From the NCBI RefSeq assembly GCF_029255285.1, contig NZ_JAPUVI010000112.1, positions 32,963 to 96,962 of the forward strand: 64,000 nt of DNA. The letters are read 5' to 3'. The notes under the pieces are model-generated. The model did not search any database. It worked only from the letters and a program-made list of their open reading frames with translations, and was not told the origin of the DNA. Shown here piece after piece: positions 4,694 through 64,000 of the stretch. Both the position numbers and the translations under genes were made by a program. Numbering within the stretch: the stretch's first letter is position 1; every line of letters begins with the position of its first letter. The stretch comes from Accumulibacter sp. GTDB lineage: Bacteria > Pseudomonadota > Gammaproteobacteria > Burkholderiales > Rhodocyclaceae.

Positions 4694-4710
4694 TGTCGGG
4701 AATTTTGACA
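4694..4710 (+). promoter_or_regulatory. Probable PrsR-type enhancer element upstream of PEP-CTERM gene
   Basis: TGTCGGGAATTTTGACA. The same 17-bp pattern occurs upstream of the two other secreted-protein genes (10598-10614 and 63597-63613). It ends 98 bases before the -24 GG, whereas the other two end 65 bases before it; the 33-base difference is about three helical turns. Confidence 0.65.
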
Positions 4711-4806
4711 GTCGGCTCGGCAAGCCGGCTGGGCGACTTGTCGCCCTCCATCGAACAACGCCCCAAAGCGCTGTATTAATGATTGATCGTGGGCTTCGTC
4801 GCTGTA

Positions 4807-4822
4807 TGGCACGGAACATGCT
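4807..4822 (+). promoter_or_regulatory. Sigma-54 (-24/-12) promoter
   Basis: TGGCACGGAACATGCT matches the sigma-54 consensus TGGCACG-N4-TTGCW with one mismatch; the GG (4808) and GC (4820) are exactly 12 apart. Transcription should start near 4832, giving a leader of about 70 bases before the ATG at 4903. Confidence 0.8.
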
Positions 4823-4902
4823 TAAAGGTTCATGCCGCGAGCCGCCGCGATCCTTTCAGGCTCGCAAATCATTACCTAGCTACATCACCGGAGAAGAACC
4901 CC

Positions 4903-5484
4903 ATGAAAAAACTTGTCCCGCTTCTTGTTGCCGCACTTGGCTCCCTTCCGCTGGTGGCAAACGCCTTTCCGATCGCCGCGCCGGGCAGCGAAGGCCTCAA
5001 GGTCATCGTCAGCAGCACTGATCCAATCGTTGCGACTTATCAGGGTAACTCCGCTTCGTACAGCAACGATCTTTACCTGATGCTCGATGGTCTAGGCAAT
5101 CCGGGCGACGACGGAAATTTCAGCAACGACCGGTTCATTTTCAACAATCATGCCTCGTCGGTGGGCAGCACCGTCAACCTCGGTTCGTTCACCGTAGGCA
5201 CCGAGCTGATTTTCCGACTGCACGTCAACAACACAGGCTACGACTTCTTCACGGGGCCGGCGGCACGTAACGCTGACGGTAGTTCCCATGCGCGCGTCCA
5301 GGGAGAGTGGCTGCCTGGCGAAGCGCTGGTCAGTTTCGAAGATCTCAACGGTGGTCCGTTCGACTACAACGATCTGAGCTTTTCGTTCACCAATACGCGT
5401 TCCTCGGTCCCTGAGCCTGGAGCGCTGGCTCTGCTGGCCTTGGGTCTGGTGGGTCTGGGGATGGGGCGCCGCGGTACGCGGTAA
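4903..5484 (+). CDS. PEP-CTERM sorted protein with DUF4114-like domain
   Basis: A secreted 193-residue protein. Residues 1-22 are a signal peptide (MKKLVPLLVAALGSLPLVANA). The middle shows a DUF4114-like calcium-binding pattern: GTELIFRLHVNNTGYDFF, then LVSFEDLNGGPFDYNDLSFSF near 148-168. The C-terminus is a canonical PEP-CTERM anchor: VPEPG, a hydrophobic helix LALLALGLVGLGMG and a basic end RRGTR, recognised by exosortase. ATG 4903 is chosen over upstream starts because it begins the signal peptide and follows a GGAGAAG site. It is a single-gene unit with a strong -24/-12 promoter. Likely role, by family, is in the extracellular matrix. Confidence 0.93.
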   Translation: MKKLVPLLVAALGSLPLVANAFPIAAPGSEGLKVIVSSTDPIVATYQGNSASYSNDLYLMLDGLGNPGDDGNFSNDRFIFNNHASSVGSTVNLGSFTVGTELIFRLHVNNTGYDFFTGPAARNADGSSHARVQGEWLPGEALVSFEDLNGGPFDYNDLSFSFTNTRSSVPEPGALALLALGLVGLGMGRRGTR

Positions 5485-10597: not shown

Positions 10598-10614
10598 TGA
10601 CGGAAAATCTTACA
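10598..10614 (+). promoter_or_regulatory. Probable PrsR-type enhancer element
   Basis: TGACGGAAAATCTTACA, 15 of 17 matches to the pattern TGTCGGRAAWWTTKACA shared with the other two promoters. It ends 65 bases before the -24 GG, the same distance as at the 63.6-kb promoter. Confidence 0.6.
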
Positions 10615-10677
10615 GGCGCCGGTCGCCGCGACTTCGGTAAGCTGCCAAGCTACTGTTTAATAATCGATATATGGTTA

Positions 10678-10693
10678 AGGCGCGAATCTTGCT
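10678..10693 (+). promoter_or_regulatory. Sigma-54 (-24/-12) promoter
   Basis: AGGCGCGAATCTTGCT, with GG at 10679 and GC at 10691, 12 apart. It matches TTGCW fully and TGGCACG at five of seven positions. The start site would be near 10703, leaving a leader of about 148 bases. Confidence 0.65.
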
Positions 10694-10850: not shown

Positions 10851-11858
10851 GTGATATCAAGAACCTTCCTTCGTGCCTCTTGCCTTGCCCTCGGGCTGTC
10901 GTCGATCGGCCTGACATCGGCCGTACAGGCGCAGACTGTCAGTGCTCCCTTCGCCGCCGACTATACGCTCGTCGATCTGGCCGCCGTGCCGTCACTGCCG
11001 CTTCCTTACGGCGGGCTTAGCTTCAAGGCGGGAGATCCCAACACCATTCTGATCGGCGGGACGGCCAACGCAGCCAGTGGTCTGCTCTACCAGATCGGTG
11101 TGGTGCGTGGCGTCGATAATCACATTACCGGCTTCAGCGGCAGCGCGACGGCTTTCGGCACGGTCGGTGCCTTCAACGATGGTGGGGTGGTGTATGGTCC
11201 GGGTGGCGTACTGTTCACATCCCAGTGGCCGGAAAACAAGCTGGTGCAAACCAAGCCCGGTAGTAGCGCAGCGGACAAGGTGATCGACCTGCTTCCGTTC
11301 GGCGTCGCGCCATCGCATGCCGCGTTGAACTTCGTTCCGGCCGGCTTTGCCGGTGCTTCACAGATGAAGCTGGTGTCGTGGTCTGGCGGCCAGTTCTATA
11401 CTGCGGCCTATGCACCCGACGGAACGGGGACCTTCGACATCAGCAGCGTCACCCAGGTCGACCTCGATTCGACCACACTGGCCATGGACACTTTGCCTGG
11501 CGGGCCCGAGGGCTTCGTCTATATTACCGCGGGTAACCCGGGCTTCGTCGCCAACGCCATGCTGGTTTCGGAGTTCAGTGCCGGCAACGTGGTGGCTTAC
11601 GATCTGGATGGCGACGGCAACCCACTGGTCACGACTCGACGTGAGTTGATCACCGGACTCGAGGGTGCGGAAGGTGCGGCTATCGATCCGCTGACCGGCG
11701 ACTTCCTGTTCTCCACTTTTGGCACCACTGCGGACCGCATCGTCGCCTTGCGCGGCTTTACCAAATTGCCGCCCCCGCTTCCGGAGCCGGCGAGCGTGCT
11801 GCTGTTCGGCATCGCGCTTGCTGGATTGGCGCTCCAACGACGCAAGGAGAATGGCTGA
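10851..11858 (+). CDS. PEP-CTERM sorted protein, beta-propeller-like
   Basis: A 335-residue secreted protein. It starts at GTG 10851 (VISRTFLRASCLALGLSSIG), giving a signal peptide cut near AVQAQ, with GGAGAACG just upstream; the in-frame ATG at 10797 would put 18 non-signal residues first. The body has repeated blade-like segments (GDPNTILIGGTANAASGLLY, GPEGFVYITAG, GAEGAAIDPLTGDFLFSTFG) as in SMP-30/NHL-like propellers. The end is PLPEPASVLLFGIALAGLAL followed by QRRKENG, a PEP-CTERM anchor. A lone transcription unit with a -24/-12 promoter. Confidence 0.92.
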   Translation: MISRTFLRASCLALGLSSIGLTSAVQAQTVSAPFAADYTLVDLAAVPSLPLPYGGLSFKAGDPNTILIGGTANAASGLLYQIGVVRGVDNHITGFSGSATAFGTVGAFNDGGVVYGPGGVLFTSQWPENKLVQTKPGSSAADKVIDLLPFGVAPSHAALNFVPAGFAGASQMKLVSWSGGQFYTAAYAPDGTGTFDISSVTQVDLDSTTLAMDTLPGGPEGFVYITAGNPGFVANAMLVSEFSAGNVVAYDLDGDGNPLVTTRRELITGLEGAEGAAIDPLTGDFLFSTFGTTADRIVALRGFTKLPPPLPEPASVLLFGIALAGLALQRRKENG

Positions 11859-63596: not shown

Positions 63597-63613
63597 TGTC
63601 GGAAAAATTTACA
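63597..63613 (+). promoter_or_regulatory. Probable PrsR-type enhancer element
   Basis: TGTCGGAAAAATTTACA; 17 of 17 fit to the pattern TGTCGGRAAWWTTKACA. It ends 65 bases before the -24 GG, identical to the 10.6-kb promoter. Confidence 0.65.
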
Positions 63614-63643: not shown

Positions 63644-63701
63644 CTAAGGTATTGGTATTACAGTGAATTGCGTTGCTGGAACAGATTCTGCTAAGGTATT
63701 G
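63644..63701. repeat. 11-bp direct repeat in the promoter region
   Basis: CTAAGGTATTG occurs at 63644-63654 and 63691-63701, the second copy overlapping the -12 element and lying just before the expected start site. Function unknown. Confidence 0.7.
63677..63692 (+). promoter_or_regulatory. Sigma-54 (-24/-12) promoter
   Basis: TGGAACAGATTCTGCT; GG at 63678 and GC at 63690, 12 apart. It departs from consensus at three positions. The start site would be about 63702, 40 bases before the ATG. Confidence 0.65.
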
Positions 63702-63741: not shown

Positions 63742-64000
63742 ATGAACACGAAACTTACCCAGATTGCCCTGGCGGCCGCGCTGGCCGTCGGCGCCGGCAG
63801 CGCGAGCGCCGCGCTGGCCATCGCTGGCGCCATCCCGGCCGGCACGTCCCTGTTTTCGGACAACAGCGCCGAGCAGCACATCGACGCCAACGGGAATGGC
63901 ATTCTCGATGTCGGCGATTCGCTGAGAGGCATCTTCTCGATCGACAACATCGCTGGCGCGGGTCCGGCGACGGCGATCGGTGCCGGCTCGGCCTACAACG
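63742..64000 (+). CDS. Secreted protein, probable PEP-CTERM type, 3' end outside window
   Basis: From ATG 63742 the frame encodes a clear signal peptide (MNTKLTQIALAAALAVGAGS, cut near ASAA), then an acidic Asn/Asp-rich stretch (EQHIDANGNGILDVGDSLRG) that looks like a calcium-binding loop. A GGAG site precedes the start. The C-terminal sorting signal lies beyond the window, so PEP-CTERM membership is inferred from the signal peptide and from a promoter module matching the other two such genes. Confidence 0.7.
   Translation, partial: MNTKLTQIALAAALAVGAGSASAALAIAGAIPAGTSLFSDNSAEQHIDANGNGILDVGDSLRGIFSIDNIAGAGPATAIGAGSAYN

Follow-up and report, generated by a model that had tools for sequence, protein, structure and literature searches.

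Candidate PrsR boxes at whole-turn spacings and a promoter-anchored IHF-like element at sigma-54 promoters of PEP-CTERM genes in Accumulibacter

Three promoters in a stretch of Accumulibacter DNA very probably belong to the PrsK-PrsR/sigma-54 regulon of PEP-CTERM genes, with PrsR acting through an IHF-assisted, helically phased loop. PEP-CTERM proteins are sorted by exosortase and are associated with matrix and flocs. The stretch analysed, hereafter the window, comprises 64,000 nucleotides (positions 32963-96962 of contig C112) and its end is the end of the contig. On a broader scale, and with less assurance, we lean towards a three-part, phase-locked switch: a PrsR box, a sigma-54 promoter, and an IHF bend whose place is fixed relative to that promoter in either of two mirror orientations about one centre, with the box moved in whole turns of the helix. 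If so, 279 listed promoters from dozens of families would measure the helical repeat of DNA inside the cell, at approximately 11.05 bp.

Three modules in the window

An initial annotation of this DNA placed 17-bp elements and GG-N10-GC promoters before three genes, and all of these are indeed present, each on the + strand. At site 1, the predicted PrsR box (motif 1), TGTCGGGAATTTTGACA, occupies positions 4694-4710. It is followed by an IHF-like element at 4776-4788, which starts 32 bases 5' of the promoter GG and has two mismatches to YAANNNNTTGATW, which we take to be the IHF consensus, and by the sigma-54 -24/-12 promoter, TGGCACGGAACATGCT, at 4807-4822 (GG 4808-4809, GC 4820-4821). Site 2 has a predicted box, TGACGGAAAATCTTACA, at 10598-10614, an IHF-like element at 10646-10658 (-33 from GG, two mismatches) and the promoter AGGCGCGAATCTTGCT at 10678-10693 (GG 10679-10680, GC 10691-10692). 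At site 3 the corresponding features are the predicted box TGTCGGAAAAATTTACA at 63597-63613, an IHF-like element at 63645-63657 (-33 from GG, one mismatch) and the promoter TGGAACAGATTCTGCT at 63677-63692 (GG 63678-63679, GC 63690-63691). The GG-N10-GC core of a sigma-54 promoter is thus found at all three sites, in a genome that encodes rpoN. The boxes end in TTGACA, CTTACA and TTTACA, respectively, and spacers of 97, 64 and 64 bases separate the boxes from the GG. The longer spacer equals the shorter one plus exactly three 11-bp steps.

The first two modules precede PEP-CTERM protein genes on the + strand. Gene 1 (4903-5484) encodes 193 amino acids, with an N-terminus that by eye resembles a signal peptide, and gene 2 (10851-11858, GTG start assumed) encodes 335. 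Both products match PF07589 at their C-termini, with 23.5 and 24.2 bits against a cut-off of 20.7, and the gene 1 product scores 33.5 bits against PepA (NF033554), under the cut-off of 80. Of gene 3, which encodes a secreted protein, the contig end leaves only the 5' part (63742-64000, + strand), and profile scans of families returned no informative family for its product. A copy of gene 3, 97% identical and preceded by its own module with a spacer of 64, breaks off where contig C94 ends, and the ends of contigs C37 and C73 hold identical orphan PEP-CTERM C-termini. We infer that these orphans complete gene 3 and its C94 copy; together, the four pieces are probably a single duplicated gene split by the assembler.

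The module across the genome

Neither half of the module is distinctive by itself. The motif 1 pattern TGWCGGNNNNNYTKACA, derived from the three sites themselves, has three exact matches in the window. One mismatch raises this to four; shuffled sequences average 1.33 and 5 of 100 reach at least four, so that by itself motif 1 exceeds chance only weakly over 64 kb. Matches to the sigma-54 motif are frequent in the window, with 37 on the + strand and 28 on the - strand at 8 or more of 11 positions. A module score built from the three window sites combines the two motifs and their spacing, with a line at 22 or above drawn post hoc. None of 45 tiles of 1600 bp on the minus strand of the window reaches this line; on the + strand, where the tiling excluded the last 800 bp that hold the third module, it is reached only in tiles holding the first two.

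Genome-wide, the simple motif 1 pattern TGWCGGN6TNACA has 19 matches, against four for the reversed pattern. Eight of these precede PEP-CTERM matches, one precedes gene 3 and ten lie elsewhere, including one at C89:83406 with the full composite. The strict composite TGTCGN6TTTACA-N30..90-GGN9TGCT, which catches only the third of the three window sites, occurs 14 times in the genome and its control 0 times. PEP-CTERM matches number 27 at E<=1, with 25 above the cut-off; two of the 27 are contig-end stubs without upstream DNA, leaving 25 readable. The full module stands before 16 of these 25, and before 14 of 23 independent matches once the two training sites are removed. The lowest-scoring module reaches 22.2 and the highest other score is 18.3. 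All 16 modules have spacers within one base of 53, 64 or 97. Among the nine readable matches without a full module, two carry motif 1 with a degenerate -24 element, and three look like false matches.

Elsewhere in the genome 96 tiles were scored, and only two overlapping ones, at a single place, reach 22 or above; that place is the module of C112:4888, whose gene falls just below the PEP-CTERM cut-off. Of 14 control genomes, seven have PEP-CTERM matches, above the cut-off in two. Three further modules in the Accumulibacter genome (C86:19574, C89:83306 and C95:1100) precede genes without a PEP-CTERM match, and the reading frames there are uncertain.

PrsR and its co-occurrence with the module

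The genome encodes the regulators that such a regulon calls for. PrsR (TIGR02915) scores 739 bits against a cut-off of 502.6, PrsK and PrsT, also above their cut-offs, score 870 and 942 bits, and the three genes lie in tandem as prsT-prsR-prsK at C24:85264-91561. A gene for an EpsB_2 glycosyltransferase (TIGR03013) adjoins them, extending the cluster to C24:85264-93095. RpoN is present as a single copy (465 bits), and the gene for IHF-alpha, the only IHF subunit sought, is above its cut-off. Among the best 80 loci, the closest named PrsR proteins include three from Candidatus Accumulibacter (84-87% identical) and one from Propionivibrio (82%). Within C24:60000-116000, a relaxed motif 1 pattern has no match before prsK, prsR, prsT or the neighbouring glycosyltransferase gene. 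A Sel1-SLT gene (L089:3951-4913) lies close 3' of prsT, with no module found. Taken together, the genome scan and the presence of prsK, prsR, prsT and rpoN support the view of the initial annotation that the window shows part of the PEP-CTERM regulon described by Haft et al.

Module and PrsR also occur together well beyond this genome. In a sample of 369 genomes of the class, some of them incomplete assemblies, the strict module is found in 77, at 167 sites, and the reversed-pattern control at 0. PrsR is present at E<=1e-150 in 106. Both occur in 67 genomes, the module only in 10, PrsR only in 39 and neither in 253 (Fisher p ~1e-34), and 155 of the 167 sites are in genomes with PrsR. The 39 genomes with PrsR and without the module are weak evidence, because the pattern is strict and caught only one-third of the window sites.

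Spacers fall at whole turns of the helix

The distance between box and promoter is quantised. Among the matches listed from the class sample (150 of the 167 sites, in 70 genomes), spacers peak at 53, 64, 75, 86 and 97 bases with few between, and the best period is 11.05. An initial null for this comb had a 99.9% point of 10.0, against 25.4 observed (n=76), a comparison that was too easy since the main peak was kept in. A more stringent one collapsed the class sample to 124 distinct family-spacer pairs from 48 families, with family labels entered by hand, and excluded the main peak; the Rayleigh value of the remaining 72 pairs is 24.2, and the 99.9% point of the null is 15.1. Of the 48 families, 8, 30, 21, 11 and 8 have a site at teeth 53, 64, 75, 86 and 97 (+-2), respectively, and 0, 2, 1, 1 and 0 have one at the two midway positions after each tooth.

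A second sample from the same order reproduced both the comb and its phase. The scan was positive in 104 of 399 genomes, with six control matches. Among the matches listed, and leaving out 21 from genomes already counted, 129 sites in 53 other genomes have a phase of 8.94, against 8.93 in the first sample (period 11.0), and a V-test value of 6.9, against a null maximum of 4.2. Pooling the listed sites (279 in 123 genomes) gives tooth means of 42.8, 52.9, 63.7, 74.9, 85.7 and 97.0 and a fitted tooth step of 11.05 bp; a genome bootstrap of the best single period gives 11.0-11.3. The strong comb ends near 100 bp and sites thin out beyond: spacers of 101-161 occur in 28 of the 369 genomes, at 32 sites or more, several of them apparently by chance, with four control matches. 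Spacers cluster at whole helical turns, as those of a helically phased enhancer would. Base composition within the spacers has no matching rhythm, AT content at 61 sites of the 62-66 class having a best period of 14.2 and no clean peak at 10.5-11 bp.

The helical repeat of relaxed DNA is 10.5 bp. The comb step matches that of lac loops in vivo rather than this value. In such loops, according to the available text of one study, the repeat is 11 bp per turn (PMC8501960).

An IHF-like element at a fixed place

A third element lies between box and promoter. There is a preference for A at -32/-31 from the GG in the 64 and 75 spacer classes alike, so this preference is tied to the promoter and not to motif 1. 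With up to two mismatches, YAANNNNTTGATW is found at -33+-1 in 42 of 94 sites, against a mean of 4.2 at other offsets, and in 30 of 60 further sites (elsewhere mean 2.7, maximum 7). The opposite orientation is found at -20+-1 in 25 of the 94 (elsewhere mean 6.3, maximum 18) and 13 of the 60 (elsewhere mean 5.3, maximum 15). One or other orientation is at its fixed place in 63 of 94 and then 41 of 60 sites, and the element is missing from both places in 50 of the 154. The first 94 sites include some from the Accumulibacter genome itself. The further 60 were hand-picked from the 129, one or two per genome, with their first 80 bases visible during picking, so that this second test was not blind. 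The order of letters in the consensus matters: among 500 permuted versions placed identically, those doing at least as well as the real one numbered 1, 0, 0 and 1 across the four tests.

The main placements, at -33 to -21 and at -20 to -8, mirror each other about -20.5, an arrangement to be expected were IHF to bend the DNA at a single point whichever way it is oriented. In the further 60 sites, matches to the opposite orientation are not unique to -20, numbering 13 there and 15 at -36/-35. Two of the 15 with a match at -35+-1 also match at -20, one has a match at neither place, and the other 12 are forward sites, which appear here because both orientations share AAN4TT. A candidate IHF site thus stands at a fixed place between box and promoter, as a loop assisted by IHF would require.

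A proposed mechanism and its rivals

These elements probably work together as follows. PrsR, an NtrC-type AAA+ activator, would bind the 17-bp box, mostly 53-97 bp 5' of the -24 GG. IHF would bend the DNA at a fixed point just 5' of RNA polymerase, and this bend would let bound PrsR reach sigma-54 and so open the promoter. Such a loop would be short and stiff to torsion, strongly favouring whole turns from box to promoter, and we propose that the 11-bp comb of spacers is the outcome. Binding by PrsR and IHF, looping and activation are all predicted here from the arrangement of sequence elements. Against the mechanism stand the 39 genomes with PrsR only and the 10 with the module only, the nine readable PEP-CTERM matches that have no full module, the PEP-CTERM matches in control genomes, the 50 sites with an IHF-like element at neither place, and the absence of a clean helical period in AT content. 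In addition, NtrC-type activators usually use two boxes, and most sites here have a single one. A second PrsR box nearby is a minority feature, with 14 matches around 93 sites against five in control stretches of similar length. Where a second box-like sequence does occur, it is often ~88-114 bases 5' of the first (L110, L122, L133, L138, L162, L176 and others).

Several other explanations would account for part of this pattern. That the modules are chance matches in a GC-rich window is next to impossible. It could draw on the weak excess of motif 1 over shuffles in 64 kb and on the 10 of 19 simple genome matches that do not precede PEP-CTERM genes, but it is already contradicted by the strict composite, whose 14 genome matches and 167 class-sample matches both face a control count of 0. 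We also find it highly improbable that the comb stems from shared ancestry of a few promoters and not from a physical constraint. Related copies within one genome are clear, for example two each in G338 and G711, yet the comb survives the collapse to family-spacer pairs in 48 families, and teeth 53, 64 and 97 all appear inside the Accumulibacter genome. It is very improbable, too, that the box is bound by some NtrC-type activator other than PrsR. Six further regions of the genome match the PrsR model near full length and three more match it centrally, all below the cut-off, and 10 of the 77 module genomes lack PrsR; however, the box co-occurs strongly with the curated PrsR family, and the available text of Haft et al. 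reports the same profile match in 13 species.

More weight attaches to the nature of the third element, which might be intrinsic curvature or an upstream contact of RNA polymerase, the comb still arising from looping. We regard this as possible, though rather unlikely. In its favour, A/T-rich steps at -32/-31, -22/-21 and ~-11 from the GG lie about one helical turn apart, an IHF-like match is missing from both places in 31 of 94 and 19 of 60 sites, and opposite-orientation matches peak at -36 too. However, at most one of the 500 consensus permutations equals the real one in any test, the mirror placements about -20.5 are those that a single bend centre would predict, the -36 peak consists almost wholly of forward sites, and IHF-alpha is encoded in the genome. 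A bend made by IHF remains our preferred reading of this element.

Reach and meaning

The module is not confined to PEP-CTERM genes. A PxP...RR tail was found in 41 of 84 downstream genes, with three running off, by a crude pattern applied to the longest reading frame that undercounts such tails; nine of the 43 without it were chosen by eye for a Pfam scan. Among sites retrieved from outside the Accumulibacter genome, some genes following modules encode Sel1-SLT transglycosylases in three genomes (lytic transglycosylases, at L119, L175 and L183) and DUF3135 proteins in two. In two genomes (L139 and L161) the module precedes genes for GGDEF diguanylate cyclases, which may connect PrsR with cyclic di-GMP, and in one genome (L135) it is followed by a gene for a sigma-54 activator with a VpsR domain, a possible regulatory cascade.

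If PrsR, probably IHF, and whole-turn spacing are all needed, their combination would provide a rule for scanning genomes for the regulon, including members that are not PEP-CTERM genes. The promoters of the comb would also represent a natural data set on enhancer phasing. In activated sludge bacteria, PEP-CTERM proteins have been linked to floc formation, according to the available text of one report (PMC9850573).

Comparison with known systems

The module itself corresponds closely to a published element. The available text of Haft et al. 2006 (PMC1569441) describes a motif 1 of 17 nt, with TTTACA at its end, that precedes a sigma-54 motif 2 across a spacer that averages 62.8 and ranges from 32 to 92, with a standard deviation also given; the element goes with PrsK, PrsR and PrsT, and PrsR is the predicted activator. 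The sites described here share with that account the 17-nt motif (two of the three window sites being one letter off TTTACA), the spacer followed by a sigma-54 motif, the PEP-CTERM genes after sites 1 and 2, and a genome encoding PrsK, PrsR and PrsT. The consensus proposed in the initial annotation is not a novelty, such a motif having already been given in that paper. From the sites retrieved, a better motif 1 consensus is TGTCG-R-AWWT-TTTACA, its fixed letters coming from the pattern used in the search. The site 1 spacer of 97 is at or just beyond the published maximum of 92, the exact boundary of motif 2 there being uncertain. The 11-bp comb and the IHF-like third element distinguish our account from what is available of the Haft text, and the initial annotation was likewise silent on quantised spacing and on an IHF-like element.

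A similar comb is known from the sigma-54 enhancers of Vibrio qrr genes, which are activated by LuxO. There, in the portions of the study available, 61 enhancers have loop lengths ~11 bp apart, read as helical phasing (Levy et al. 2016, PMC4740811). The qrr case concerns one genus, tandem LuxO sites, loops of ~80-120 bp and an AT period of 10.6 bp, whereas the modules described here have mostly single PrsR boxes, spacers of 42-100 bp, an IHF-like element and no clean AT period, and extend over 48 families in the class sample. Another known system is the pepA promoter of Aquincola tertiaricarbonis, where the available text describes an RpoN1-dependent PEP-CTERM gene whose mapped start lies 3' of a -24/-12 promoter, together with an enhancer predicted upstream (PMC9850573). 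It resembles our sites in the type of gene, the promoter and the enhancer predicted upstream. It differs in that RpoN1 dependence was tested experimentally, and neither spacing nor IHF is mentioned in the text available.

Our literature search, which took in few subscription papers, found no work that connects the regulation of PEP-CTERM genes to IHF or to helical phasing. Three papers do mention both PEP-CTERM and integration host factor; judging by title, two concern Geobacter and one an insect symbiont. At IHF-assisted sigma-54 promoters such as that of nifH, IHF sits between the activator site and the promoter. The present modules may resemble promoters of this type, an IHF-like site again standing between candidate activator site and promoter. 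The module is already published; what looks new is the phased comb and the IHF-like element, a further instance of an established form of control.
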